This document shows positions 44,308 to 64,000 of a DNA stretch of 64,000 nt, one piece after another. The DNA lies in NCBI GenBank assembly GCA_033439255.1, contig CM065885.1:248001-312000 (forward strand), read 5' to 3'. Within the stretch, counting starts at the first letter, position 1, and each line of letters begins with the position of its first letter. The notes below the pieces were generated by a model, which was not told the origin of the DNA, did not search any database, and saw nothing but the letters and a program-made list of their open reading frames with translations. Origin of the DNA: Hericium rajendrae (taxonomy: Eukaryota > Basidiomycota > Agaricomycetes > Russulales > Hericiaceae). The position numbers were made by a program, and so were the translations under genes.

Positions 44308-46431
44308 ATGGGCCTCCCAGTCGAGTCTCTTTTCCAGAACATCCGCGTCTATTGTGCGTATCCAGCTCGCCTTCGACTTTCTGAGATGCTGATGGGCTTC
44401 GCGTGCAGGGCTCGCGTTCATTGCCTATTGGGGCATTGTTCTCTTCGGATATGATACGTGCGCACGCCTGCGGACGCGTCGTGGACGTCTTGCTGATCTG
44501 CATCCGATAGAGGCGTAGCAGGAGGTGTCGTCAACTCGAAGTACTTCCAAGTCGAGTTCGGCTTCAGGCCAGCAGAGGGACCTTTCGACCAACATAAAAT
44601 CGACAACTTCTCGTCCAATGTTGTCTCCGTTCTTCAGGGAGGCGCGTTCTTCGGCGCCTTGGGGAGTGCACCTATGTCAGGTATGCATGCATGTCATCAC
44701 TTGCATTGTGTCGCCGCTTAGCCTCGCGATTTGTGCTTGACAGCCTACATCGGACGCAAGTGGACACTCATCGCTTTCACTCTCATTTTCACGCTTGGAG
44801 CCGTGAGTCATGCATGTTCTTGCCTATCCACCAATGAGCTTAGACCTCGGCGTAGGTCCTGCAAACAGTAGCTGGCGGTAGCCGAGGCTTGGGTTACATT
44901 TACGGTGGTCGTGTCGTGTCGGGTTTCGGCATCGGTGGTATTTCCGCTATCGCCCCTGCTTACGTTTCGGAGTGCTCCCCGAAAAATGTGCGAGGACGTA
45001 TCACGGGGTGCTTCCAGATCATGGTTGCAGTCGGCGTCATGATCTCCTACTTTATCAACTGTGAGTTATTCATGCTCAGGTTGTGCATTGCTCGAAACTC
45101 ATGATTCAAATCCTAGACGGTATCAGTCTGCACATCACAAGCGGGCCGGAGATTTGGAGGATTCCTTTTGGCTTCCAATTGGTACCGGCGGGTATCATGG
45201 CCTTCGGGCTGCTCACTGTTCGGGTATAAAAGCCGACTTAGTATTCAGACAACATGCTGATTCAAGACACATCTAGGAATCTCCGCGCTGGCTTGCTTCT
45301 GTCGGCCGTGAGGACGAGGCACTCGCGAACCTCGCGTATTACCGCAGAAAACATCCCGAGTCCGATGAGATCCGGTCGGAACTTGCTGAAATCGAGGCTG
45401 CAATTCTCGAAGAACGCCAGGCAAGGGCGGACCTCGGCATCAAGGAGGCGTTCCTTGGGAAGGGCAACTGGATCCGCTTCGCCATCGCCTTCTGGATTTT
45501 CGTTCTCCAGCAGTGGTGCGGACAGAACTCGGTCAACTACTACGCTCCGCAGATCTTTGCTTCGGTGCGCATTTTCCGACTCATCCAGCAAAATGTTACC
45601 TCATGCTATCTACACAGATTGGCTATTCGAGCAACACGAGTTCCCTCCTGGCATCCGGTATCTACGGTATCGTCAAGGTTATCGCGACCGCGATCTTCAT
45701 TTTCTTCTTCGTCGAATCGCTCGGTCGCAAGAAATCGCTCTTTATCTCGGCAATGGGCATGGGTGTCCTCTTTTTCATTGTCGGTGCGCTTTTGAAGGAG
45801 TACCCGCCCCCGACCGATCCCAACGCTGCGCCGCCCCCGGCTTCAAAGGCGATGGCCGCCATGCTCTATATCTATGTTGTGTTCTATTCGATGGGATGGG
45901 GCCCGCTCCCATGGGTATATGTTGCCGATATATTCCCCACGCGGACGAGGCACTATGGGCTAGCGATGGCGTCGGCATCTCAATGGTTGTGGAGTACGTC
46001 CGTTCTCGTTGTCACTATCTCATCTTACTGACTGGATGGGAAATAGACTTCGTGCAGTCGAAAACTACACCTACGATCCACACAAACCTGGGCTATAAGA
46101 TGTTTCTCATGTTCGCCACGATCAACATTGGGGCCATGGGCACATTCTCGCTGTATGTGCTTCTCGGAGATCAGCGCAAGCTCAGAGTACTCATGTCATA
46201 CATATCACCTTCAGGCTCATCCCTGAGACCAAAGGCCGCAGTCTGGAAGAGATGGACGTTATCTTCGGATCTGTTTCAGCAGAAAAGCGTCGCGAGGACA
46301 TCGCGAAACAGGAACACGGTATATCTGCCTCACTATATTTCATCACCGTTCAATCTAAATCCACTTTCGCAGAAATGGAGCACGAGAAGCACGAGATCTC
46401 ATCGGAGCGGTCGCTCGACCACAAGATCTGA
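44308..46431 (+). CDS. Major facilitator sugar transporter (hexose/quinate type)
   Basis: It starts MGLPVESLFQNIRVY at 44308, with many short introns. Exons encode LAFIAYWGIVLFGYDTG, VVNSKYFQVEFGF, SVLQGGAFFGALGSAP, IGRKWTLIAFTLIFTLGA and LGYIYGGRVVSGFGIGGISA followed by IAPAYVSECSPKNVRGRITG. ESPRWLASVGREDEALANL, FVLQQWCGQNSVNYYAPQIF, SLGRKKSLFISAMGMGVLFF, GWGPLPWVYVADIFPTRTRH and PETKGRSLEEMD follow, ending SLDHKI at 46431. The GRKW, GR..G.G, PESPRWL-like, YYAP and PETKG signatures are those of the MFS sugar porter family with twelve membrane helices. The QNSVNYYAP wording is closer to quinate/hexose permeases than to disaccharide ones. Plasma-membrane uptake by proton symport is expected. 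It looks intact. Confidence 0.9.
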
Positions 46432-48577
46432 GGCGTGTACTTACTGTAGATTCTTGCATACCCGCCTATCGGGCTTAGTCGCGTCTGGATCCTATTGCCC
46501 TCATTACGCTTACGACACTCACCTGCTGCTATGACTGTATTCTATGTGTATTCTATTATTTGGCAATGTCATTCTGGATTTCAGGCTTTGATTGCTCACT
46601 GGTTACCCTGAATCCGGAAGGTACTGTATTCTGTCTTCGGAAGCTGAATTACGCGTCCGAGTCATCAGCAAAACAGTCCGAAGCGCCCAAGAGCGTCAAG
46701 ATATGGTGGCTGTCTGGTTACGGTTCATTTTCGTGAAAACTCCGCCATCTCGGATCAAAATATTCTCGGCCCGCACGTTGAGTCAAAGTATCGGGTAAGC
46801 ACCCTCTGTCACCCTTAAACTTGTGTTTAAGCTTGAGCTGAGAGTTATATCCTTAAGGGCGCAACATCAGCTGTATCCTCTGAGTCTCACTACCCGGTAC
46901 CCAGTGTCTCGATGCAACATGACATGCCAATATATGGCTGGTTTGTGTCCAAAGTGCGAGTATATCCCTCCAGGAAGGGCTGTCTTTTGAACTTGATTTC
47001 ACAAGCCATAATTAAAATGAATCAAGTTTCATTACGATTCACGAAGGTACAGGAAGTGATTGACGAGTCCTAGCAGCTCGCGGTGTGCGCTCTCTGCACC
47101 CCATACCCATTACGCCTGTCGTCTGCGCCTGCATGTTACCCGCACACCCACTCCCGTACCTAGACACGGCCGGTTCATGCTGACGCTCACGCCGCGCGCT
47201 CCTGCATGCCGCTGCCCACCACGCTCCCGTACCTGCGCCTGCACGCCGCCTGCTCGCTCGCTCGCCCATCCCAATGCACCGCCGTCCACGCTCGTCACCA
47301 CACATCCACCGTTCGCCCCTGTATTGGCGAGGCACGCGCCACGCTCCACACGCACCCTCACTGCCTGCCCGCCGTCTCTGCCCATCCGCGCCGCTGTCTA
47401 CGCACTGCAGCTCACCTGTCCTGCATCGCTCCCCACTGTACGCTACCAATTTCTGACACGGGTAGTCACGCATTGGGACGGAGTGCTACCGCGAACGTAG
47501 GCACTGCGGGCGCACGCATACGGGATCATGAAGGTGCAGATGCCCGCACAGCACATGAGTGCGGTCATGCAGGCACCGATGCCGTCGTTACACCGGGTAG
47601 CACATGGAATGTGGCGGTGGGCACGATATCAAGCGAGAGGGTCGAGAGGGTGGCTAGGATGATCTGTCGCATTGATCGCGACGATCAGGCTTAGGGCGTA
47701 TGAGTGACCCGCGGTGCGATCGTACGGGACGCACCTACAGCCACGAAGAGCACTTCGCCGCCCGCGACGCTCCATGGTCGTCTAACCCAATCCCTCCCCC
47801 ACGTTGGCCAACACTTCTATTATCGTGACGTGCATCTATCCGTCTCCGCCGCTCGCTTTTCCTTCCTCAGCTAGGAAGGGAGTGGGCGTGCGGAACAGCG
47901 AAAGATGGTCGGGGAAGAGGGCTGGTGGATGCTGGGCATGCACGTGGAGTGGTGAGAGCGTGGTTCCCGGCAATGATGCATAATCCGAGAAGTACGAGTT
48001 GACGTGGATGGGGGGTTGAAGTCACCTCAAATTTTAGAGTAAGGCTCACTCACCAGGCGAACTGAACATCGCAGCATCTGACTTTTGAGGGTGTAGCCAT
48101 CGTTGGCCAGCGACGTAGGTTTTCCCTGATGCACGCCGTTGTGCTGGAGGTAAGTATGCGACGACGGGCCTGCCCTGGCAGTCATCAGTCATCTGGCAGT
48201 CATTGAGTTCGAACTCGACGGAGTCGCGCCCATTAAGCGCCTGCCGCGCCAGATTCGAGCACCCTTCCAAACGTTTGCTGTAGAATGTTCAAATGTGCTT
48301 TAAATTAGCTGAAATCTGGTAGACAGGTACTTTCGATATATGTCTCCCATAATATCACGTTGGAATCTCTTAGACAATTCTCGCACTGTCGATAATCGGT
48401 AGTTCGTGAGCAGGTATGGGCGGCCTAATATGATTATGTAATCACGTTGAACACAGAACGCGACGCGACTTCGAGGCGCTTTGGACGCGACTTTGGACCT
48501 GTTCTCTTCTTGTTCTTGTTCTCGATTTCATTCCTTCGCCTCTCAGTCCTTACTGGATATCACATTATATATCTATT
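46432..48577. other. Two kilobases without a confident gene; GC-rich Pro/Thr-coding tract
   Basis: 47,060-47,690 is a C-rich, low-complexity tract where several frames stay open by composition (Pro, Thr, His, Arg), similar in style to the GC-rich insertions further left. A minus-strand scrap at 48,046-48,270 has no family likeness. No gene is called. Confidence 0.5.
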
Positions 48578-51003
48578 ATGCCAGAATATCGCGAGGTTCT
48601 GGCTAGTACTCACAATTTCTCGCTGGTTCGAGAGCCTTTCTCCTGGTCAGAAGGAGCAACTACGACTGCAAGCCATATGGACCGATGCAACTGGTCCTGA
48701 ACAGGCACAGATGAAGAACTGCCCTGCGAAGAGGGGTATGCCTTATGTTCTTAACCACTTCTCGAAGGTCCGGCGCGGTAGCAAGGATGCTCAACAGCCC
48801 ATCTATCCGCCGGGCTGCAGTTCCTTGAGCGGCCTTCACTTCAAAGGTGCCCATTTTTCACCCAGAAGTGTCATTCTGGATCTAGACAAGAAGTGGTTGC
48901 AAGTAAGTACATCTCTATGCCCTACCATTCATTACAGTGGTCTCATTCTTGCAACTATCAGGTCCAGCTACATACACACACCATGACCCAGGTGTACACC
49001 CGCTCGCAATGGCATAAATCTGTGTGCCAAGTGCCTTCCGGAGTGAGTAACACCTTAATATTCTGACTCTTAAGTGACTGAGTTGTTCTAAGGAACGAGG
49101 CTTTCGCGTCGTATCGGGTTAGACTTCGGCGAGTATGTTGTCGCCTTTATTACAGCTGACAATATCTTCACGGTATGTTCTTATCTTATCTCGAGTCTTT
49201 AATATCTAGCTCGCTCACTTGCAGCGGTTGCACAGCCTCACTGGGCCGACACTATGAAGGACCTTCCGGTTCGTCACGTTGATGTATGGGGTGACTGGAA
49301 AGGCTTCCTCAAGAGCGTCGCAGAGTGGATGCATATGCGACGTCAAACGACTCGGCATCGCAATGGCTATGCTGTCACGATTATCCGAACTGATGGTGGA
49401 AAGGTGTTTGGTGGGGTCGGTGTATACACCATCCTCGAACTTTTCTTCTTGGCTGGTAAGCGTTTTGGTATAACCGAATCTATCATCTAATAACCTGGAG
49501 TAGGACTTTCTGTTCATCTGACAGAGAGTGAAGTCTTTGACTGCCCGTCTCGTGTGGCCAGGCTCTGTTGTGCTTTCTGGACATGGGCTAATCTTGCTCA
49601 TACAACATTCGAGTAAGTCGTGATATTTGCTCTTAGTGATTTGATAGTCTGAGCATTTGCTCTATATAGAACGTTTCTGCAACCTTGCTACAAGGGATAT
49701 GTCCTTACCGCGACTACAGAGCAACGTTTGCGATATGCTCAAAAACTATCAGTATTTGGAAAGGAGAGGGTTCTCGTCTCTGCCCGAATGCATAAGATGA
49801 GTAAGGAATACGAGGTAAGTGTCTCCTGGTTGTCAATGCTTCCTTTAATCTATTCATACTTTCCAGAATGTATTAGCACATCATGGGACTAAGGATGGCA
49901 CATTCGTCCGTAATCATTCTACCGGTTTGTATGATGTCTTTGAACCGACATTGATCGAGCCTGCGCTGATGCAACGAGAGCTCAACCTTGGCCATCTGAT
50001 CTTTGGAGCAGCAGTTTGGCATGACATACGCAATCAGATTCCAATTCTGATGGTTGCTGCTACTACAGAAGACCCGTTAACTGCAGCATTTCGATCAATT
50101 GGTGTGTTTCTTGCTGCATCTTCACGTTTACTAGCTTCAATGAGCATCATAATTGTATAGATCTGCTTGACTCGTCGACAAATCTCAACATGCCTTTATA
50201 CCAACCAGGACTCTTTCTGCCTGAGAAGGAGCGGATTCGCAAAGTACTCTACATTCGTTTATTTCAGGCCAACAAGGCGCTCTGGACTATAGCTCCTGCC
50301 TTTCCAGAGAATGCAATTCCACCTGTGTCGAGCAAAGCGTAGGTGCCATGAATTGCTTAGTTGACATATCATTTGACTAAGTTATCTACAGGTCTTCTCG
50401 TGCAGCCACATGTTGTGCGACTGCATCTGCCACCGAAATTGATGCCATAAAGCGCAAGAAGAGGACTTGGAATTACGTGGTTAAATCCACACTAGGCCCG
50501 ATGATTGGGCCTCTGGAGTATTGCGGGATCGCCCATATGATAAAGCCACAAGGTGGTGTAAAGAAGAAGCCCAAGAAGCCTAAGAAGGACGATGTGGATC
50601 GCTCATCGGAGGATGACCCACCACCATCGCTTGTAAGTGCCTTGCGATGTCGAGGCTTTAAGGTCAAACTAATGAAATGATGTAGTTAGCGATTTGTCGC
50701 AATGACCCTCAACTTCCATCCTCATACCGCCATAGGCAGATCGCTGGACGTTTGTATATCAAGGAAGGTGGATATGGCCGTGGCAATAAGGATCAGATCA
50801 AGCGTTTTGCAAGTAAGATGGGTCCAGGCGGATGGACTACAAAGCCAAAGAAGAAGTCGGCAAAGAGTAAAAAGGAAGGAGCTGCGCCGATCAAGCCTCT
50901 CTCAGTTTCGACTTTGCAGAACAGTCCGGAGAAAGGTACATCTCTCAAGAGAAAGCGCACACGCCTTTCTGTGGACAAGAGAATGGCCCTTGGTCGTGTT
51001 TAG
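48578..51003 (+). CDS. Large basidiomycete hypothetical protein with basic C-terminus
   Basis: About eight exons. Early exons: MPEYREV at 48578, then WFESLSPGQKEQLRLQAIWT, PYVLNHFSKVRRGSKDAQQP and SVILDLDKKWLQ. Middle: HVDVWGDWKGFLKSVAEWMH, AVTIIRTDGGKVFGGVGVYT, RLCCAFWTWANLAHTTFE, LSVFGKERVLVSARMHKMSK and DVFEPTLIEPALMQRELNLG followed by HLIFGAAVWHDIRNQIPILM. Late: YQPGLFLPEKERIRKVLYIR, a Lys/Pro-rich block (GVKKKPKKPKKDD), GRLYIKEGGYGRGNKDQIKR, then a basic tail ending RMALGRV. The first exon join is uncertain. I do not recognise the family. The basic tail suggests nuclear or DNA-bound function. It is convergent with the integrase gene at 54.5 kb, with a retroelement fossil between them. 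Confidence 0.55.
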
Positions 51004-51199
51004 ACATTTACTAGATTAAGATACACACTATTGTACACACAATTCAATACCTTCTTTCAAGCGCAAGGCCTCCCTCTCACGGAGTGACTATTTGTCTCTG
51101 GCCATCGCACCATGAGCATCGTCGTCTCTGTGTCTGCCCCTGGCTCTGCCTTCCGCGCACGTTCGAGCACCTCCTGCAGCTCCTTGCATGCTACAACAT

Positions 51200-54030
51200 T
51201 ACTGAGTCTCTCATTCTCGAGGTGGAGCTTTTAGCGCACCTCCTTGAGATCCTTGACCTGAGGCATGAACTGTGCGGCTGTGTGCTGGCTTGCAACCAGC
51301 TATGTCTTGGTGTTCTGCAGCGCAGTACCCGGATAGAGGTGCGGGAACGCGCATAGTAGGGAACGAGGCGAGAGGCGGAAAGCGGCGAAGCGCAGCTTGG
51401 AGACGGCTACCGTCGAGTTCTGTGAGTCGGTACGATCCGTTCTGCGAGCGGCGGACGACAATGAATGGGCCAAGGTAGTGGCACTTCGACTTGCGGCTGA
51501 GGTCGGTCTCGATGGCCGAGTTTCGTACGAGGAGGGCGCCAGAGCGTGCGAATAGCAATGAGGTCAGCAGTCTCGAGGGGCATGGAGATGTCAGGGATGA
51601 GGGAGGTGGCTTGCGGGATGTCGGATGGGAGAACGGGCTCGACGCCATGGGCCATGTAGCAAGGGGAGTGCCCGATTGACTTGTACATGGCACGATATGC
51701 CCAGAATGCATGCGCTGTGAGAGTGGGCACTTTGAGGTGCTGCCGTCGCACGCCTTGATGATGGACTCGCGGATCGTGCGGTGCGAGCGTTCGACGATAC
51801 CATTAGCACGGGAGCGCGTTCACATTGAACGTCACGGCGACCGTCGGCCCCGCATTCCTGCTGCACGTCCCTGACACCGCGACCCCCTTCGCGCCCCAGC
51901 TCGGCGTGACCGCCCCCACGCGTGCCGCGAACGCGGTCAGCGCGCTCGCATAACTCCACGTGAGGTCGACCGCGCTCAACGGGCTACCGTCGCCGCGCGC
52001 GAACTGCTCCGCGAGCGCGCCGTCCGCGGGCATGTACTTCTGCACGACCGCGACGAACCCGTCCGCGAAGCTCTTGATCGCGGCGGTCAGCATGCTGTAC
52101 GTATCCGAGCCCTTGGTGTACGACCCCACAGCCAGGCCGGCAGAGAACTGCTGGAAGAACGCGAGCGAGGTGCCCGTGATGTCGATGGACCCGACGGAGT
52201 CCCAGGTCAGCAGCGCGTCGTAGAGCTGCTCCGCGACGGCGAGCGTCGTGAGGTACCACGGGTTGCTGCCCTGGTAGACGTCCTCCGGATACCGCCCCGT
52301 CGCGACCACCGCGTTCGCAGCGATGCCATCATTGAGCGCATAGACTGACCGGAACGACTTGACGTACACCTTCAGACTTGCAAGTGCCTTGTCCGAGCAC
52401 GGCTGGAACGTCGCCGCCTCGCATCCCGCAGCGATGTCCCATGTGTGGATTGACATCAGCACTGTGTACACGTCGATGCCCGAGCAGCCGCCGCCCGTGT
52501 TGGCAGTGACGTAGCTTCCGCCGGGATTCCAGTACGACTGTAACGCAACGGGCATCAGTACGTCCACGATGTGGAGACACAAACGCAGCGCCACACCTGC
52601 AAAAAACACAGCAGGTTGTCCGCCTGCTTGTTATAACCGCTCACGCCGGACGGATGCGCATCGCGAACGCGGAGCCCTCGCGCAGCGCGCGATGCTGCAC
52701 GGCCGTCGTCCAGAATGACGAGCTGGAGATCTCCCACAGGTCGAACCTGCACACGCGTCAGCTTCCGCCGACTCGACATCCACCCCACGACGTGCTCACG
52801 TCATCTGGTTCCAGTCCGCCGCGACGTAGTCGAGGTCGAGCTTCATGATCGGCCAGAGCGTGTCGACTACGTAGGACCCGTTATTGTTGTCGAGCAGCTA
52901 GTTCGCATACATGATGATGGCCGTCGCGCGGAGTGCCGGACCGTCTGCACCACTCATCAGCCCCACATCTGTGCACACTGAGATGCAGACGCACCACGCT
53001 GCGGGCGGCCCCAGGAGCCGGTGAACGCTGTCTCGTCGATGTTGAACTTCGGCTCGCCGAGCCCGCCGGTGCTGACACTCCTGCTCGGGTTCATGACCTG
53101 CTGCAGGATGGCCTCCATGCTGATGAACTCGTCGACGAGCGTGCAGTGCATTGTGTCGAGTTCGAGCACAAGCTGGTCCGCGAGCGCCTTCAACATGAGC
53201 GACGCCGGGAAGGTGAGAGTGCGCAAGTGAGTACGCGCGCAATGAGGCCAGGAAACACGACGTACCTTTGCACCGGCCGATTTCGGTGGAATAGAAGCCC
53301 TTGTGTCCAAGGTTGTCGCGACGCAAGCGAATGAGCAGGATGCGCTGGGTCAGAGGAATGACTAGCTGATGCTTGCCATCGTTGTGTCGTCGCCAGAGCC
53401 AGTCATCATGCACGAAAAAGCAGCACGCCTTGTTGAGGAATCATGGCAGCATTCAGTTGGATATTGGGGTTGTTGAGCATGCCGCATATGTATTGAGCAT
53501 CTATCTCGACTGTGAAATTCTTGAGGCCGACCATATGAATGCGCAGAGAACGCAGGGCTCGGAATAGGTTGTAGAGTTCGATCTTGGCTTGTAATTAGTA
53601 GCTCTGGCGGTCGTTCCATGAGATATAGAACCTAACCAGGCAGGGAAGCGTACATCATCGGTGCCGACTTGTGAGAGAATTCACCCGACTGCGACGATGG
53701 ATGAGTCCACTGAGAGAGAGAGAAACTTCGCGCCCACACTCGTAGTCAGGAGAGCTGCATATAGCGGTCTTGAGTTGGTTGATGGCTGAGTTGTGCTCGT
53801 CGGTCCAGATGAACTCGACACCCTTCTTATCACGAGTGAGCATGAGATGGCAGAAAAATTGGCCATCCAGATGGGCCCTGTACTGCGCAGCATACGTCAA
53901 TGTCCATGGCATCTTTAGAGGTAACAGGATGCTTACTGTACCACGGGTGCATGTCCAGGGTCCTGACAAGGCTTGCGAGTCCCTGGTAGTCGCTGTAGAA
54001 GATATCCCGGTGAGATGTCTTCTATGTGAT
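51200..54030 (-). mobile_element. Ty3/gypsy retroelement fossil, badly broken
   Basis: Minus-strand pieces of a Ty3/gypsy pol region. A reverse transcriptase/RNase H part (about 53,380-53,970) includes KKGVEFIWTDEHNSAINQLK. A zinc-binding part (about 53,270-53,400) reads DNLGHKGFYSTE. An integrase C-terminal part (about 51,360-51,800) includes YKSIGHSPCYMAHGVEPVLP and KCHYLGPFIVVRRSQNGSYR followed by LTELDGS. Between the last two a glucoamylase gene piece is lodged. LTRs were not identified. Several breaks are present and the element looks old. Confidence 0.8.
51815..53215 (-). pseudogene. Glucoamylase (GH15) gene fragment lodged in the Ty3 fossil
   Basis: The minus strand encodes the catalytic domain of fungal glucoamylase from an internal point: SLMLKALADQL, VSTGGLGEPKFNIDETAFTG with SWGRPQR, GPALRATAIIMYAN, and SGYNKQADNLLCFLQ. 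It continues with SYWNPGGSYVTANTGGGCSG, GIAANAVVATGRYPEDVYQG with SNPWYLTTLAVAEQLYDAL, and LAEQFARGDGSPLSAVDLTW. It stops at GPTVAVTFNVNA, exactly where a starch-binding domain would begin. Introns remain recognisable (for example near 52,600). The N-terminus with its signal peptide and the starch-binding domain are absent. Known: the intact enzyme is secreted and releases glucose from starch ends. This copy cannot make it. Flanks on both sides are Ty3/gypsy coding sequence. Confidence 0.85.
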
Positions 54031-54535
54031 TACCTAATCACGAGATGACCTTGCGACCTGCTCACAAACAGGCAAATATCAGCAGTGCGAGAATTCACTA
54101 AGAAAAACGGAAGATACATTCCGGTAGAGTACCATTCAAAGGCACTGTACACCGAGTTTCATGTAATTTAGAGCAGAATTGAGCCCACTACATCATACTT
54201 TTGGACGGGTGCTCGAACCTCATTCAGATGGGCGCTTAACAGGCCAGATTTGCTTCCGCATTTCCTTATTAGCACGCACTTAGTATCTTCATCTCTTGCA
54301 GAGCAATGGTTGGCCAAAATGCAAAAACCCTTCAGGTATGTTCAGGTGGAAATTAAGCAGTCTGTACTCAATACTCTTAATAGATCATTACACACACGTC
54401 GATGATATGCAAGCATCAAAAACTTCAACAGCATGACGAACGACGAAGAGAGACGGGACAATGACAGCAGGTTCGTAACCTGTTCTTTGGACTTGCAACA
54501 ACTGTGAGCCAATACATGCATTACTATCTAATTAT
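54031..54535. other. Intergenic stretch, no gene seen
   Basis: AT-rich, between the Ty3 fossil and the stop of the integrase gene. No coding frame or terminal repeat was recognised. Confidence 0.5.
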
Positions 54536-56357
54536 CTAGAAGAAGAAGTCAACAGATTCGTCCTCAGAAGTTTCTGACCCCTGTGAGTCGCTTTCTTCAG
54601 CATCATCCACATTCCCATCTACTCCGTTGGTACTCTGCAGACCAATTGCCTGATCACCTCGACGACAGGCCTTCAGATCTAACACCTGGATTTGATCTTC
54701 TTTGGGAATAGGTGTGGTGTGGTCGATCGGGTGTGGTCTTTCGGAGATGGATGATTGAACTGTATGCTCTTCTTCGAATGCGTGAAAACATCCTAGAAGG
54801 TCAGCATAATTGTTCCAGATGTTATCGCGATCGCTTGGTGGAAGAGCTAGCTCCTCAATAAAATTTTTGGCAAGCTCTTCAAATGGTTTGGGGACCAGCA
54901 GGAACACGGGGTGATCATGCGGTGCATACACGTCTCGTATTTCGTCGAGCATTGCTAGATCCACTTGCACCTATGATCATACGGTAAGCCTGATATCATA
55001 ATAATGTTCGAATCCTAGCTTACACCAAAATCCAGAGATTCAAAGTTTTCAGGGTGCCTGAAGATATCGTTAGGACGGCCGTGCGGCAAAACCTTGTGTT
55101 TGTCTCGACGTGGCTTTGACATGTTGAACCGCTCTCTAAACAGGTCTAGTTCCATTTGAATCCAGGGTATGAATACATAGTGGAAAACCATCCTACATTT
55201 TGAAAGTAAATCTCCAAAGGTCTGGCTCTATTGTAGGAACTCACCGCTCGAGTGGATCATCTGGGTTATAGATTCCTTCCTCCAGGCCATACGTTAGGAC
55301 GTCATGAAATCCTGGTGCCCATTGACGTCGGACCTGCCGCCATTTGATCTCAGGTTTGACATTGCGATGCCCGCCCATGAATCGGTGTTGCAGTGAGTCT
55401 GCAAGGGACGGATCATGTCGATGGCGTAAGATGGTATGTCCATTTGCGATACCATTATTCTCTGTTCCTGGGTCGCTTTGTGTAATGAGAGGCATGGCTT
55501 GAAGATCAAAGGTGAGCATATAATTGTTGAACAAATTCTTGAGGTAACACACCACCAAGCTCAGCCACTGCCTCGCAGTAATATGAAAAGATCAGACGCG
55601 GGTTTTTGTTGGTCCACCATGCCTTCAACCACATCAGCCGTCCGGAGAATGGCTCGATTGCAACGTGCAGGAAGACTTGAAAGGCACGCCACTTGTCGTG
55701 TTGATCTACACACCAGATATCGTTCACGCCAGCGCACCAGAATTGCTTGCGGATAAGACGATGTGAACGGCGCTGTAGGACTTCATCGCGATGATGGATG
55801 TTCATGTAGTCAAGGATGAGTTGTCTAACTTCACATATAAGCATGTTTCATTCTAAATACCATACACAGACGCACCTAGGGACCATAATGTGCTCTTCTT
55901 GGAGCAGAGTATGACGCATGTCATGAGAGCCTTGTGCAGGAAAGCGTGCTCGCACGCGTTCAATAGCAGGGCGAATGCTTTGTACGGTATGGCGTTGTCC
56001 TCTTGCTTCTACTACGCCCCATTGCATGCGCCTCTTCTTAAGCAAACTCAATCTAACAGGATCTGATCGTTGATCAAAGAAGCAAGAAGCAAAGAGAAGG
56101 ACTTACGACACCTTGAGTTGATGATCCTGCCAAAGTAGACCAACTATCTCGTCATTCTTGTAACCATAATTGACATACATTTCTATCAGCGGGCAAATCT
56201 CGTCATCGGGAGCTGCAAAACAAGGCATAGTAAGTCGTGTTTGGTCGCCAGCAATGAGAATAAAGTCACTAACGTGGTTTGCTATGACCATTATTTCCTG
56301 CAGGGTTTGGCATGTTGAGAACTTTCTATTCCAGAATGCCGTTGTCCGTTCGACCAT
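54536..56357 (-). CDS. Stand-alone rve-type DDE integrase/transposase
   Basis: It starts MVERTTAFWNRKF at 56357. A helix-turn-helix-like segment follows (CPLIEMYVNYGYKNDEIVGL, then LKVSLSLLKKRRMQWGVVEA). The integrase core reads RLIRKQFWCAGVNDIWCVDQ|HDKWRAFQVFL (first Asp), FSGRLMWLKAWW, PLITQSDPGTENNGIANGH (second Asp) and NVKPEIKWRQVRRQW (Glu, about 40 residues later). Later exons encode FIPWIQMELDLFRERFN and VLPHGRPNDIF, then an acidic end (SEDESVDFFF). All exons join by short GT-AG introns with no break seen. No reverse transcriptase, capsid or LTR is attached. Known: such solo integrase-core genes are frequent in Agaricomycetes. Whether it is a DNA-transposon gene or domesticated is open. 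Confidence 0.75.
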
Positions 56358-56582
56358 TTAAAAGATGTCTGGCAGACAAATCATGCAAGTCGTCAGATCC
56401 TCGTCTTCAGTGTGCGCATCTGGGGTCCGAGTCTGTAAGTGGGGTCTCTGCCTCTGCCTCTGCCTCTGCGATTCAATTATGGCTTCACGTCTTAACTTGT
56501 TGCCTTTCTCAACTCTCTCAAAGCTCCGTAGGACGCTCTTTTGACTGCTGGCCTTCCACCATCCTTTCTCTGTTCACTCAGA
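56358..56582. promoter_or_regulatory. Divergent promoter between integrase and zinc-ribbon gene
   Basis: Only 225 bases separate the two start codons. It contains a CTCTGC tandem (GCCTCTGCCTCTGCCTCTGC, about 56,449-56,468) and CT-rich tracts. Co-expression of the pair is plausible. Confidence 0.45.
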
Positions 56583-58247
56583 ATGGAGTTCACTAAGAAG
56601 AAAAAATCCCAGAAAGCGATAGAATGTGATCGCTGTGAGGCTTTATTCCCGCTTGACACTCTTTTCACCTGGATCCCCGGCAAACCTCAGGGTCGAGCAT
56701 GCTGTCCGAAGTGTACAATCTACTACAAGGAAAAGGCAGAAAAGGAGGATAACTCCTCACTTGGTGTGTGACAATATCGCTGAAGATATACCAGGCTTAA
56801 TATCTTCTATCCTGAAATACGCACAGAATTTACAACAATATCTGATCATGCCTTAGTTCATGCCTCAAATGCAGCTCAAAGGGGCCGTACGTTCTTTCTT
56901 TCTGTCTAAAAGCCAAAGCGGTTAAATTGACTACTGCATTTAGAACCACATCTTCCTACTCGTCGCCTCCCTGCTCAGCAACATAGCGGTATGCACGTGA
57001 AGCAGGTGGTAGGATATGGAGGATCATCATCCTTGCCGGTCTCTCGGGTCACATCCGATGGGAGTGTTGGCTACACCAAACATCACGAGCAGTACCTATA
57101 TCATCGTGACACGATGGCGAAGAAAAGCAGTGGCAAGGCATCAAAGACGGCGGTCATAATTCACTTTCTGATGCATCACCTTAAAGAAGAGGGAAAGTCT
57201 GGTTCTCTTATAGTAGGGGTGCGTTACTCTGCTCTCATTTTGAGTGTTCAGCATCATGATGATGAATCTCAGAATATTGAAGAAAGCGCTAAAGTTCCAG
57301 CAACCATGTCACGTGTTGAGCTGTATGATTTTGCGATCGAGCTCTTGATGCCAGCATGGCTGGAGTGGTCTGAGGGGTGCAAGATTGCTCCGGAGCAGTT
57401 GCGCCTGTATTTGCCTCCCAGGCTGCTTCTATACCCTACCAAGGAGACCCCAGGCGATGAAGACGATCCTTTGGTCCGCACGCTTTTCACGAAGAATGAA
57501 AAGTTCGCTCCGTCGGCAAAAGTGTCCATCTTGCTGATGGTTGATACCGAGGCGTACCATGATGCATTAGAGTGGTTGGCACGCAGTGACAGAGCAGCAG
57601 ATAGCCGTCAAAGAAAGGTAAATCTTCCTCTTAGAAACATGTGTTGCGAATGGATATTGACTTCTAGACTTGATATAGATTGCCATCAAGAACGAAGATA
57701 GCGACGAAGAAGATCTAGCTGCAGATTTCGATGAAACGCCAGAACAAAAGCCCATCGGTGATATTGTATGGTGACGTTCCTATTCTGACTCATACCAAAG
57801 GCTGATTGTTGTTCTAGCTTTGGGACGCAGCAGGTGTGGATAAATCACGTAAAGGCAAAGCAAAAGCAAAAGGCCTATCAAAGTCAAAAGCAATGAAAGC
57901 AAGGCCCGTGTCCAGCCACTCGGTAACTCAGCCTCGTGTTGTGTCTGAGTCCCAAAGGCAGCAGTCATCACTGACGATCAGGATCCCTGCCAAGCATCGT
58001 GTAAGTTCATAATATGGTGGCCCCCCATTATGCTGCGTCTCTAACTGGATTATCCAGCTTGTCGGAACGTCTTCGGAGGAGTCGTCATCTGAGGATGATA
58101 TCGCCGAGTCAAATGTGGATGTTCCAGAGAAGTCTACAGGAGCGTGGAAGCCCTTGTCTCTGCCGCAGATTGTTCCACGGCTGGATTTCCCACTGCCAAA
58201 CATTCAAGCCATTGCCCAATCTCTTCGAGCATCTGCTGCGATTAGCT
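56583..58247 (+). CDS. Zinc-ribbon-like partner gene, 3' end cut by hAT insertion
   Basis: It starts MEFTKKKKSQKAIECDRCEA at 56583, followed by GRACCPKCTIYY; the CxxC...CxxC pair suggests a small zinc ribbon. Later exons encode FLMHHLKEEGKSGSLIVGVR and MSRVELYDFAIELLMPAWLE followed by WSEGCKIAPEQLRLYLPPRL. VRTLFTKNEKFAPSAKVSIL, an acidic segment (NEDSDEEDLAADFDETPEQK), a Lys/Ser-rich segment (KSRKGKAKAKGLSKSKAMKA) and PLSLPQIVPRLDFPLPNIQA come next. The frame runs into a hAT terminus at 58248, so the native C-terminus is lost or replaced. The exons between about 56,760 and 57,080 are uncertain. The gene diverges from the integrase gene, which suggests a functional pair. Family unknown. Confidence 0.5.
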
Positions 58248-61200
58248 TAGGGTGGCCGAAGAGTGGTGGGGTAACTTTACCCACTGTAAATTTACCCGGT
58301 AAATTCCCCGTAATTTACGGTCATTCCTAGACGGGTGTGATTTTGGACGGTCAAATTAGGTAAATGTCGGGCTATTGGTACTATAGATATATGTACAGAT
58401 GTCTGAGAAGCCAATAGAACCCGGATGATGCTTCCTTGTTCGCTGATGGCCAAGTAAGTATAACGAAGAAACAAAGTGTCTCGTCTGGCGGACAGAATTT
58501 ATATGGACAGTATGTGGCACAGGTGCCCGGTGACGTCGGGCTGTCGCGGCAGGGTTGCTCCCTGCACATCTACCAGCTTCTCGCTCATACACTACCAGCT
58601 CAACATCACTCTTTATCTCGCACACTCTTTCATATCATGGCAGCCAACTTGACTGCTATTCACCGACTACAGATGTACTTGGAGAATCTACCCGAGATAC
58701 TTCCAAAGCCGGTCATACCACAAGTTGATTTGCGCGGTTTTAGCTACGATGCCGAGTTTGCGCAGGAAGAGGGTATTGAAGGTGCAGCTAATAGGGAGCT
58801 TGAACTCCGACTTAAAACCTGGAAAGCGAATGATGTCTTCAAGATTACTGAGCGTGGACCAGGCATTGAAGCCCTCGCTGACGTTCTGAAGACCCTACTC
58901 GATGAAGTGCCAGGCTCTGCGATAATAGAAAAATGGGTCTGGGATGCGATTACCGCCGCGGAGGCTGTCTATGCAGCTGCTGGTTCTCCCTTAGTGTGTA
59001 ATTAAACAGCTTTATCGGTTCTAAATGCTCACCATCTGTTTATAGCCATCTGCAGAGACAATTTCTCTTGCTGTGTTCAGCAATGGAGGAAAGCGAAAGA
59101 AGCCGGAGAAGAAGATGAAACGGCCAGCCACTAAACGGCTAGATGCCTTCGATGACGCTAGGTGCCAGGATCTGGAAGAAGTGGTGCCCGACCGAAACAG
59201 TGGTGCACGACAGCATCCTCTGATTGCAGAGGCGTCACGTCCCTGCACACTCATTGTACCCATCGGCAAAGAGGACGACCTAACAAAGGAACGTCGCCGC
59301 TGTATCGCCAGCAAGGAATGCAACACTACGTGGTCAAATTCGAACCGTCAGCGCATCTTCGCACATGCAGCCAAATGCGGGTACCTACCAGCAGATGTGC
59401 GGCGTAAGGCTGTCGAGGAGATGGCAAAGAAGTCTGATGGGAATGCCATCGCTAAACGCGGTGCAGCTGCCGTTGAAGCTAGTAGCGATCTTGAGGAGTC
59501 CAGCTCGGTCGAGCATGCACCGAAGCGGCTCAAGGCTGGCGTTGCAGCACCGAAAGGGCTCAAGACATCTGACGGAATGCAGAAATTTGTCAATGAGGGC
59601 AAAAAGCAGCTGAAGCAAAAGGCGGACCACTATCTCATGCTTTACCTTGTCTGCAGTGGAATTGCCATCCGTACGGTGAAGTCCAAGCATCTCCTTGCCT
59701 TCGCCCAGACTCTGTGTTCTACCTATATGCCGCCTTCGAAATCGACAATTCTTGAACGTCTCATCCCTGATGAAGCAGCGCGTGTCACCGTCGCAACATC
59801 AAAGTATCTTCGTAATCGTTGGAATCTCACCATTTCGTATGACGGAGGCAAAATTCGGCGACCAACTGGCATATATTCCATCAATGTTTCCACCGGAGAA
59901 CGGCGTACCTACTTGATGGATCTGGTCGACGTGTCTCGCGTCAGTCATACGGCTGAATACTTGGTTGAGATCGTGAAACCGGTGAGTACCGTACATGGTA
60001 AATAAGCACAGAATGACATACTGATTATATTTCCAGGTTATCGAGCTAATAAATCCATGGCGATTTTCAGCTGTTGTCTCCGATAACACGGGGAATACGA
60101 AAAAAAGCCGAAAGTTGATATGCGATGAATTCCCGAACATAATAAACCTGCAAGACCCGTGTCATACGATAAATCATGGCATTGGCGCAATCTGTGTCTT
60201 ACCTGAATTTTCGGAGGTCAGTCTTTGCTACTAATATATCTTCTGGTTAATGCTTACCTTAAATCTGCTCTAGCTCATCTCCATTGTGCGTGAGATCATT
60301 GCTTTCATGCACGAGTCCACATACACAATGGAGCAGCTCGATTAAAAGCGAGCTATGCTTGGTATCAAACGTGGGCTTGAAGCAATCGGGAAGACTCGTT
60401 TCAGCTCCCTGTACTGGGCCGTGCAGTCATTGGAGCGAAACCTACCTGCATTGCGGGCACTCATTAGTGATAAAGCCCTGGGTATTGACATCAAGGTCAG
60501 TCCATAGACAAGTCAGGTTGAAAGAGCGAGACACTTATCTTGTTTATACAATAGGGTCGAAACGAATTATTCACTGAGGGCAACTATCGCACCTTCATCT
60601 TTCAAGGACAGCTTGTCAAGTTCATGGCTGTAACTGCGCCGTTTGCCAAAGCAATCCAGTGCCTCGAGTCTGCACATTCGACACCAGCAGACATTTTTGT
60701 ATACTGGCTGGCAATTGCGTCACATCTAGAAGACCTGTTTCAGAGTAACTCAGTTGGTTTGTCTGCCGAGACGATCGAAAAGATCAGGACTATCACCAAT
60801 CGACGCTTCGATGAGATCGTGAATGGCTCATCATGCGGAGACATTTATTTTTCGGCATTTATCCTGGACCCTCGTGAGTGAATATCCGGTAACATCGAGA
60901 GATCAGACCCTTACAGTATATCCTCTAGGCTATCGTGATGCCCCGATCTATGTCAAGGAACGGCCTGCGACCCAGGTATTTGGAGGCGGGGACCATGCAG
61001 ACGACAGTGGTCCTGCCGGCTTGACCGACGCGCTTCGGGGGGAAATAGCAAAGCGCGTGGGCCTAGCGCTGCAGACTCTGCTAAAGAATGAGTACGGCGA
61101 TCTCGTGGATAAATGTCCTGCACAGCCGGTTGGAAAGGAGAGCGCTGAGCTCACCGCCGTGATGAACGAGCGCAACCCGTCTCTTGCTCATTTATCACCA

Positions 61201-62246
61201 CTCGAAGCTCTCACGAAGTTGCGAGCACAGCTGATGCTGTATATGAAAGGCCAAGGTCCTTTTACTGCTGAGGCTATGAGAGGAAATGGGAAGACGAGCA
61301 TGCGAGCGTTGTGGAAGAAGATGGCGAGAAGATATGGCGGCGATGTGGATGTTCTGTCGGTGAGTTCCCTGATCAATCGTGCGATTTGGGACGGCGTTTG
61401 ACAGGTTCCATTCCGACAGGCACTCGCTGTCAAGATCTACTCCATTGTGCCTAACTCCATGGCGGAGGAGCGGACAATGTCTACGGTCACTTGGTTGAAC
61501 AGTCCTCAGAAGAATCAGACACAAGTCTCGACACTCAAGGACCAGATTTCTATTCGTCAATTTCATGAGACGGACTCCCTTGTATGTCTTGTCATTTTTG
61601 CTTATCTGTGTACTCATCTCAAGCATGCATACAGGACATGGCGCCGCAGTACAAGCCCGTCTTAAAGTGGTTCGAGCTTACTAGTACCGTGGCTGCGCGC
61701 CCGACGAAAGGCGCAGGCGACTCGCAAAGCCCGATAACTATCGACGCCGAGGACGATAATTCAGCCTGGATTGATGAACCCGATAGCGATGCAGTTGAAT
61801 CCGCGGAGGTGGGCCAAGTGGATCAACGCTGGCTCAATCCCCAGGATCCCTTGTATCTCGCAGACCATGATAACGGCAGTGAAGAGCAACGCACGGCTCT
61901 ACTGTCGTCAATCCGCGGCATCATTGATATTGGTTCACCTTACCTTCAGACATTCCTTACCGACACTTTCTCGCAGGCATCTTCGAGTGTCTCGGGACCA
62001 CAGAAGTGTCAGGAGAAGGTCGAAATTGCGGCGGGCCTTGACTGGGGCACATGGAACTCTTAATTTACTTTAGCTATATGTCATTTACTGTCATTTACTG
62101 TCTTTTACTGTCTTTCTGCAGTAAATTTATGCTAATTACAGTCTGGGTCAATTTACGGGAAATTACAAGAGTAAATCTGAGGCTTGATCCTGTTCACGGA
62201 AATTTCCCGGTAAACTCTGACTCGATTCGAAACTTCGGCCACCCTA
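58248..62246 (+). mobile_element. hAT DNA transposon (3,999 bp)
   Basis: Perfect 14-bp terminal inverted repeats TAGGGTGGCCGAAG at 58248-58261 and 62233-62246. Subterminal TTACCCGGTAAATT/TTTCCCGGTAAA motifs lie near both ends (58,282-58,320 and 62,150-62,220), and a TGTCATTTAC tandem at about 62,079-62,115. The interior encodes a hAT transposase. Flanking 8-mers (GATTAGCT and GTCTAACC) do not match, so a clean target duplication is not seen. It is inserted in the partner gene of the integrase. Confidence 0.85.
58637..62063 (+). CDS. hAT transposase with one in-frame stop
   Basis: The start MAANLTAIHRLQMYLENLPE leads through about eight introns. Exon 2 has a BED-like zinc finger (CIASKECNTTWSNSNRQRIF followed by AHAAKCGYLP). 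The catalytic part begins KYLRNRWNLTISYDGGKIRR, continues with TYLMDLVDVSRVSHTAEYLV and AVVSDNTGNTKKSRKL, and includes INLQDPCHTINHGIGAICV. An insertion helical domain follows. The C-terminal dimerisation motif reads KIYSIVPNSMAEERTMSTVT followed by WLNSPQKNQ, and the acidic end stops at 62063. One TAA codon interrupts exon sequence at about 60,343 (EQLD*KRAML). Unless it is read through or spliced around, this copy makes a truncated enzyme. Other exons look open, so inactivation appears recent. Confidence 0.8.
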
Positions 62247-63636
62247 GTCTAACCATTGGGTTCATATATCTGTATTTGGACGAATGAGACAATGTGAGAG
62301 ATGTCATGAAAGAGAGTATTTAGCTAGAGCTCATCAAAATCAAAGAACTTTGAATGCACAAGTAAAAATTTAGCTTAATCAGCAGAATAATCTATCTACT
62401 GCACCTGAGGCTTTTGTTATACATGATAATTTCAACAATACTGCTCAGCTTGATGCAAATAATCCTTTTTCAGATCTGGTTATATCTGCTGAAGATTAAA
62501 CCTTGCTATAAAAGTGTCATAAAAATTTAATGAAGATTGAAATGAAAACATATCTTCACTGTTAAAAAAGATAGTTTGATCTTAATGTTATGTGCTAAAT
62601 GTTGTGCAAAAAATAATTCTACCAAATATCAGAATAGCAATAAGATGTATCCAGGGCCAGGTGCACCAAATAATTTGCCTGAATTGACACAAATGAAGAA
62701 AATGCTTATTTTTCCTATACATTCAATGATTCAATTATAGCAAGTATATAGAGGACAAACCAAATATTGAGATCATACTTGCAATTTTCCATGTGATAAT
62801 ACAATGTTTCATAACAGATTGCCATTATTGCCTAAAATGATATTATTGTTATGTGAAGAACTGGCACTAATGCTGACTCTGAGCAAATATTTCAAGACTT
62901 TCAAATCTGCAGACATTCAGTTCAACAATGGCTTGAATATCTGAAAGACAATCATCTAACATTTAGAAATAATTGCATAATCATTAATTATAATTGTCTT
63001 AATCATGCAGTAGTATGAGTAAAATTTGATGAATATTCAGGTTTGCTTCATGGTATTATTTATACATAAAATAACTGATACATGTTCTAATAGGACCTGA
63101 TCATAACATATCTGGATTCATCCTAGATGTGTTTTTATTATTTTTATAACATCAAAGTGGAAAAAAGGTGGTAGAACTCTTTCTGGAAGTTAGATGCCTC
63201 TTACATTAGCATGAGCTATCACCATTCACAAAAGTCAAGGATTGACTTTGGATAAGGCAGTCATTGATCTTGGAGATAAGGATTTTTCTTCTGGTCTTTC
63301 ATTTGTTGCTATCTCTCGTGTTCGAACTTTAAAAGGTTTAGCATTTAGGTCTAGATTTGATCATACTTGACTTCAAAAACCTCAAAGTTCAGCTACCTTA
63401 GATGCTCTTACTGAGGATACTTTATGCAAAAATAACCTTCCTTTAGACAATGACTGGTATGGTATTGACATGAATGAGTACTTTGAACAGTTTTATGATT
63501 ATGATCACTAGCTACAAATGATGTACTTATCAAATATTCTTCAAGTCAAATATTGTAATAAACATTGTATTTTTAAATTCAAATTTAGCAAGCTCTCCAT
63601 TCTCAGGTGGACATTTCCACCTGTCATTGAACCTAG
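62247..63636 (+). mobile_element. AT-rich Helitron remnant with intact 3' end
   Basis: Plus-strand scraps follow the order of a Helitron protein with large parts missing. A Cys-pair block precedes PGPGAPNNLPELTQMKKMLI (about 62,650-62,710). Then VQQWLEYLKDNHLTFRN (about 62,920-62,970), KFDEYSGLLHGI, and the helicase end AITIHKSQGLTLDKAVIDLG with FVAISRVRTLKGLAF (about 63,210-63,345). The protein remnant ends near 63,510. Stops and deletions are frequent and the composition is strikingly AT-rich compared with the helicase at 8-1564. The Rep nuclease and most of the helicase are absent. A canonical 3' terminus follows at 63605-63636. Confidence 0.75.
63605..63636 (+). other. Helitron 3' terminus: hairpin, 10-nt spacer, CTAG
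   Basis: AGGTGGA (63605-63611), a four-base loop and TCCACCT (63616-63622) form a perfect 7-bp stem. Ten bases later comes CTAG (63633-63636) followed by T. This is the terminal structure known for Helitrons, which insert between A and T. Confidence 0.75.
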
Positions 63637-64000
63637 TACTATAGATGGACCTCGGGATGACCACACGCTGTGCGGACCTCCAGGAGCAGCACCCCTCTGA
63701 AAGTTTGCTCTACCAAGCTCAATTCTGCTCGGTGAATCGGGTCGTTGGTGCATAATGGTGCATAACTTATAGGCTTATAGGGTATGACAGGCATACAATG
63801 TAGGTCAGATATTTTTCATGTAGTCATGAATGTGCAAAATTCATATTTAATATAGTTAAAAATTCTTTTTAACGCTTGAGCTCTAAGTCTCCACTTTTTA
63901 CTACTCCTCCTCCTCTTCGCTCTGCCCCCCTTGTTTCTCCTTCTCTTTGACATCGTGTACTTTTTTCTTCAACAAATCTCCATCTGTTTCCTTCTCGCTC
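63637..64000. other. Right edge, no gene seen
   Basis: About 360 bases, AT-rich in the middle with pyrimidine-rich CTCCTCCTCCTC DNA at the end. No frame with protein likeness. Confidence 0.5.

Follow-up and report, generated by a model that had tools for sequence, protein, structure and literature searches.

An integrase-like transposase and an alpha-kinase gene share a large mobile element, very probably of the IS3EU superfamily, in Hericium rajendrae

In our study, a stretch of 64,000 nucleotides from Hericium rajendrae (contig CM065885.1, here C8, positions 248001-312000; hereafter the window) was analysed around a gene with an integrase core, and a genome of 46.8 Mb in 19 contigs was searched. 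A preliminary description, made from the letters of the window, had seen a solo integrase gene, a small divergent zinc-ribbon gene and a convergent large gene. The first two are now found to be parts of one mobile element with ends, target-site duplications and a recent jump, as one near-identical element is present at two insertion sites, on C8 and on C11. The best explanation of this element is, very probably, a large DNA transposon of the IS3EU superfamily, and the element carries an alpha-kinase gene whose front part had been taken for a separate zinc-ribbon gene. The genome counts given below are lower bounds, and the adjacency of genes was tested within this genome only.

Results

The C8 element extends over C8:294702-339190 and measures 44489 bp including nested insertions; terminus searches, end reads and the C8/C11 comparison assign positions 46702-64000 of the window to it, and its right end lies past the window. 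The left terminal inverted repeat begins with TATGG and was found at 46702-46732 on the plus strand (31 bp perfect, 74 bp at 80%). Whole-genome searches with this left end located the right-hand inverted partners at C8:339190 and C11:586717. The left 6-bp target-site duplication, TCAAGA, occupies 46696-46701 and its partner stands directly after C8:339190. The sister element, C11:555905-586717, is 30813 bp long, and the nested insertions are among the causes of the difference in length. The C8 copy reads TCAAGA, TATGGTGG...CCACCATA, TCAAGA, and the C11 copy reads ACATCA, TATGGTGG...CCACCATA, ACATCA. Both elements have TATGG..CCATA ends and a perfect 31-bp inverted repeat, and each has its own perfect 6-bp duplication. 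Over window positions 46702-58247 they differ by 21 substitutions in 11500 aligned bases and by nine gaps. Their similarity starts at window position 46701, one base ahead of the terminus, and 47 of the 200 positions upstream of the two copies are identical in an ungapped comparison. For these comparisons the sequence was read to 334000 on C8 and to 585000 on C11, with 160 further bases at each right end.

Since inverted termini and target duplications were found at two sites, the earlier suggestion of a DNA mobile element is supported; the further idea that it would be undescribed found no support, because the ends, the duplication and the gene content fit IS3EU. Terminal repeats had been expected around 48.3 and 58.3 kb or beyond 62.2 kb. 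The last of these pointed in the correct direction, although the right end is outside the window, whereas the repeat at 48.3 kb is a few-copy repeat also present on C6, C2, C7 and C3 and not an element end, and the one at 58.3 kb is the terminus of a hAT-like insertion, at a site which C11 has without the insertion. A further left terminus, 84% like that of the window over 98 bp and identical in 20 of 20 terminal bases, was observed at C15:928198 (plus strand). A sugar-transporter gene (Pfam Sugar_tr, 94 bits) lies at window positions 45390-46031, just beyond the left end of the element. No Rfam match was found in the window.

The transposase gene is located at 54536-56357 on the minus strand, and its six exons (56357-56107, 56052-55876, 55824-55553, 55497-55245, 55192-55024 and 54970-54536) are a prediction from the sequence, without RNA evidence. 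The predicted protein of 518 amino acids has no internal stop and matched the Pfam 'Integrase core domain' rva_4 with 54.9 bits against a cut-off of 26, while the core exon alone scored 13.9 bits, below the cut-off. Forty residues were counted between the D of SDPGTEN and the E of KPEI. The preliminary description was therefore right that the gene is open over its full length and that about 40 residues separate the last D from the E. The C8 and C11 transposases are both open and differ by two amino acids. Scanning of viral contigs for relatives of the transposase confirmed 0 of 20 pattern matches, and the PDB profile search, leaving aside the TET-like query described below, returned 0 matches.

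The open reading frame with the zinc ribbon has its ATG at 56583, on the strand opposite to the transposase, with 225 bases between the two starts. In the window the gene covers 56583-58247 (plus strand), where it is broken by a hAT-like insertion. The C11 copy continues past this break point and its downstream exons encode an alpha-kinase (PF02816); the 3' part of the C8 gene was located just past the window, at C8:312243-312578. Hence the 225-base gap noted earlier stands, but the gene is not small, as its kinase domain is found beyond the insertion. Kinases assembled from two joined exon pieces scored 28.6, 25.4 and 22.6 against the PF02816 cut-off of 21.3 (C11 and both C3 places). Between the C11 and C8 kinase genes there is a 2-nt indel which shifts the frame.

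The core of the transposase at the second C3 place, used as query, gave 11 matches in the genome: two pieces at each of five places with close transposases (C8, C11, two on C3 and one on C14), plus a distant place at C7:286730 (28% identity, E 6.2e-5). The window core is 51-53% identical to those of the C3 and C14 places. The kinase exon of the same second C3 place, searched at E up to 0.01, also returned five places, and these are the same five. An alpha-kinase gene is found within 9 kb of the transposase at 5/5 places, the distances being 3.2-8.8 kb by match coordinates, with the nested insertion included in the C8 figure. The kinase is on the opposite strand to the transposase at C8 and C11 and on the same strand at both C3 places and C14. 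Of the proposed three-gene order, the pairing of integrase and kinase is thus kept at all five places in this genome, with a common strand at three of them, while the convergent gene is not part of it. The 5/5 linkage represents three lineages and not five independent events, because C8 and C11 are a recent pair and C3 and C14 an older one. For a site drawn at random, the probability of lying no more than 10 kb from one of the 8 kinase places was calculated as 0.0034, or 4e-8 when cubed, and the same calculation with 50 kinases gave 1e-5; these figures assume uniform placement. Kinases with no transposase match nearby were found on C2 and C16 (Pfam-supported) and, as a weak relative, on C9. 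Chance neighbourhood of the three genes, at first a candidate explanation, was abandoned once the kinase search had returned the same five places as the transposases.

Further members with both ends were identified on C3 (C3:568730-587273, GCGCAA on both flanks) and C14 (C14:935001-958341, GTCGTG on both flanks). When the two were compared, their outermost similarity ended in inverted 25-bp repeats; the ends read TAYGGAATCC (TACGG/TATGG) and the 6-bp duplications are perfect. A blind scan for a terminus plus duplication recovered a single pair in the stretch from C3 and another in that from C14. Two further stretches supplied to the scan had none, and neither did window positions 1-46000 or the C3 stretch in any of 20 base shuffles. 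The transposases of the C3 and C14 elements now bear a stop or a frame change. Between these two elements, dN/dS was 0.11-0.18 for three kinase exons and 0.05-0.28 for four transposase exons; both genes have therefore been retained by selection, and purifying selection on transposase and kinase is shown in the C3/C14 elements. Synonymous divergence is unequal, with 145 of 286 sites (0.51) in the kinase and 83 of 264 sites (0.32) in the transposase, which suggests that modules may have been exchanged between elements. In the same two elements the kinase, transposase and oxygenase-like modules are unequal in synonymous divergence, as if exchanged.

In neither the C3 nor the C14 element does this 2OG-oxygenase-like gene lie between the transposase and the kinase. 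It gave weak Pfam matches below the cut-offs (Tet_JBP, E 0.016, in the C3 copy; 2OG-FeII_Oxy_3, E 0.003, in the C14 copy), and its sequence shows a putative HxD...H...R pattern. Its TET label is tentative. The C3 protein (C3:569408-569974) had 64 matches in the genome, a count in which one place can appear as more than one piece, and none of the 64 was within C8:294702-339190 or C11:555905-586717. A PDB profile search with it gave one chance match (E 2.1), and the AlphaFold model of the domain was too poor to use (mean pLDDT 37.5).

At the distant place, C7:286730-287008, the rva_4 transposase scored 115.5 bits, and no alpha-kinase match was present in the 8 kb read; the protein also matches rve below the cut-off. 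Near C7:79 kb there is a C-terminal rva_4 fragment (17.1 bits, below cut-off).

At a later time, two hAT-like insertions of opposed orientation and an inversion broke up the kinase gene of C8. The first hAT-like element, nested at 58248-62246 (plus strand), has TAGGGTGGCCGAAG ends. It is followed at 62247-64000 (minus strand) by the start of a 3-kb segment which lies between two opposed hAT-like copies and is inverted in comparison to the C11 sister. The second copy, C8:313226-317223, is opposed to the first and 99.9% identical to it in a gapped comparison; the two differ by one base in length, from which the 1070 differences of the ungapped count stem. The 8-bp duplication of the second copy is exact across the inversion (GTCTAACC/GGTTAGAC), and in the duplication of the first copy one side carries three additional bases. 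C11 retains the earlier order, with neither the insertion at the matching site nor the inversion. The hAT label is based on the 8-bp duplications and one weak Pfam match (E 0.047, below cut-off); of the other open reading frames of the element, two had no Pfam match to E 0.1 and one had none to E 0.5. An AT-rich stretch at window positions 63215-63367 contains a helicase-like fragment, presumably of PIF1/Helitron type, with Pfam matches below the cut-offs.

The convergent large gene with a basic tail runs from 48578 to its stop at 51003 on the plus strand and does converge on the 3' end of the integrase gene, as described earlier. It had no Pfam match. A genome search with one of its exons found, besides the C8 and C11 copies, a single relative at C7:2150493, which is separated by over 1.8 Mb from the transposase matches on that contig and is near no transposase match. 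As this lone relative is away from any transposase match, the gene is most plausibly cargo carried by the C8/C11 element. At 51803-52630 on the minus strand, Pfam identified a fragment of a glycosyl hydrolase family 15 (GH15) gene; it was probably captured from a host gene, since a relative with 85% amino acid identity exists at C3:2207015. Between the genes of the element there are fragments tentatively taken, by their motifs, to be Ty3/gypsy-like; the stretches 51211-51819, 53655-54029, 51407-51802 and 51300-51563 had no Pfam match up to E 0.1. The earlier statement that retroelement parts are lacking applies to the unit itself, to which no long terminal repeat (LTR) or reverse transcriptase was found to belong, but may not apply to the spaces between its genes. 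A 220-bp repeat is present at 48226-48445 and 54025-54239, the two copies being mutually inverted and 69% alike over 165 bp, with further copies at C6:124141, C2:1530224, C7:79357 and C3:577816.

Discussion

The assignment to IS3EU rests on the ends, the duplication length and the combination of transposase and alpha-kinase. All four elements with both ends read (C8, C11, C3 and C14) have 6-bp target-site duplications, and all four have termini of the TA..TA / TAYGG..CCRTA type. IS3EU families are described, in the part of the literature consulted, with 6-bp duplications and TA..TA ends (PMC10045372), and in the relevant passage of Kojima 2025 the rust families have TAYGG..CCRTA ends, inverted repeats exceeding 30 bp and duplications of 6 bp (PMC12730594). 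The same passage describes TET+ IS3EU elements, named from rusts and Tuber indicum, in which the transposase and the alpha-kinase are oppositely oriented with a TET/JBP gene between them; none is named in its Agaricomycotina section (PMC12730594). Our elements resemble these in the DDE integrase-like transposase, the 6-bp duplications, the TAYGG..CCRTA ends and inverted repeats of about 30 bp, which measure 31 bp in the C8 and C11 elements and 25 bp in those of C3 and C14, against the >30 bp of the rust families. In the C8 and C11 elements the alpha-kinase is also opposite to the transposase, as in that passage. They differ in that C8 and C11 have no TET/JBP-like match and that the oxygenase-like gene of C3 and C14 is not between the transposase and the kinase.

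Several observations weigh against this assignment and the gene pairing. The AlphaFold model of the transposase core was too poor to use (mean pLDDT 35.8). Unlike in the passage of Kojima, kinase and transposase share a strand at 3/5 places (both on C3 and the one on C14), and the 25-bp inverted repeats of the C3 and C14 elements are shorter than those of the rust families. At the fifth place (C3:3142 kb) no ends were found within the 20 kb read. The kinase of the C3 element scored 15.6 from one exon alone, below the Pfam cut-off. Further, no kinase was present in the few kb read around either of the two rva_4 places on C7.

Two other kinds of large or gene-bearing fungal element were compared. 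Styx of Zymoseptoria, as far as its description was consulted, has an IS3EU-like transposase, 36-bp inverted repeats and extra coding genes, and was searched with 6-bp duplications (PMC10853768). However, about half of its copies measure 7927 bp, against 18.5-44.5 kb here with nested insertions included, and its three further genes encode GATA, CCHC and DUF3577 domains instead of an alpha-kinase (PMC10853768). The giant Starship transposons of fungi share the size of tens of kb or more and the inverted and direct repeats, but the source portrays them with a tyrosine-recombinase captain (PMC13066641), whereas the linked recombinase here is of DDE type, no tyrosine-recombinase search having been made.

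On the basis of its family, the DDE transposase encoded at 54536-56357 presumably binds and pairs the 31-bp terminal inverted repeats. After cutting at TATGG..CCATA it would join the ends to the target, and a 6-bp stagger in this joining would account for the duplications of that length. This transposase is inferred to perform the movement of the element. In this explanation the element carries an alpha-kinase gene, which travels along with the transposase, and has the convergent gene and the GH15 fragment as cargo. The kinase may serve the element, and its substrates, as a guess, could be the transposase or else proteins of host chromatin or silencing. Our tentative proposal, which we regard as possible and would stop short of calling probable, is that the alpha-kinase is a working transposon component, selected together with the transposase, and that by phosphorylation it either licenses transposition or disables silencing by the host; many basidiomycete alpha-kinase expansions would then be transposon genes.

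The kinase could instead be a chance neighbour or a dead passenger outside the working set of the element, which we consider unlikely. The split C8 gene and the frame-shifting indel between C11 and C8 fit a passenger, as do the two C7 places with no kinase nearby, and the synonymous divergence of 0.51 in the kinase and 0.32 in the transposase means modules without one shared history. However, each of the five places that have a close transposase also has the kinase, and these places represent three divergent lineages; the dN/dS of the kinase, 0.11-0.18, speaks against a dead passenger, and the passage of Kojima describes this pairing for other fungi (PMC12730594). Far less probable is a domesticated host integrase beside host genes, with C8 and C11 as a plain segmental duplication. 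The gene is indeed open, intron-bearing and of low copy, with close relatives at five places, but the duplicated block is bounded on both contigs by paired inverted termini, each with its own perfect 6-bp duplication, which refutes segmental duplication for this pair, and the related elements on C3 and C14 are likewise closed by inverted termini with 6-bp duplications. The domesticated recombination system of the preliminary description is accordingly not supported. Equally improbable is that the unit is what remains of an LTR retroelement, with the integrase domain turned into a gene of its own, as the sub-threshold rve match of the C7:286730 protein and the presumed gypsy-like debris nearby are outweighed by inverted-repeat ends with 6-bp duplications and by a unit in which no LTR or reverse transcriptase was found.

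For the IS3EU transposon preferred here, the pairing with an alpha-kinase was met in the literature in a short passage of Kojima 2025 alone (PMC12730594), and no report of an alpha-kinase with an integrase or transposon was found for Agaricomycetes, Repbase and most subscription journals being outside the search in both cases. New here are the large size, the kinase variant on the same strand and the finding that kinase and transposase are under selection of similar strength. Why an alpha-kinase travels with an IS3EU transposase becomes a testable question. In rust fungi, the alpha-kinase family is reported, in the part of the source consulted, to be highly expanded (PMC4469406). Part of this rust alpha-kinase expansion may be transposon-borne.

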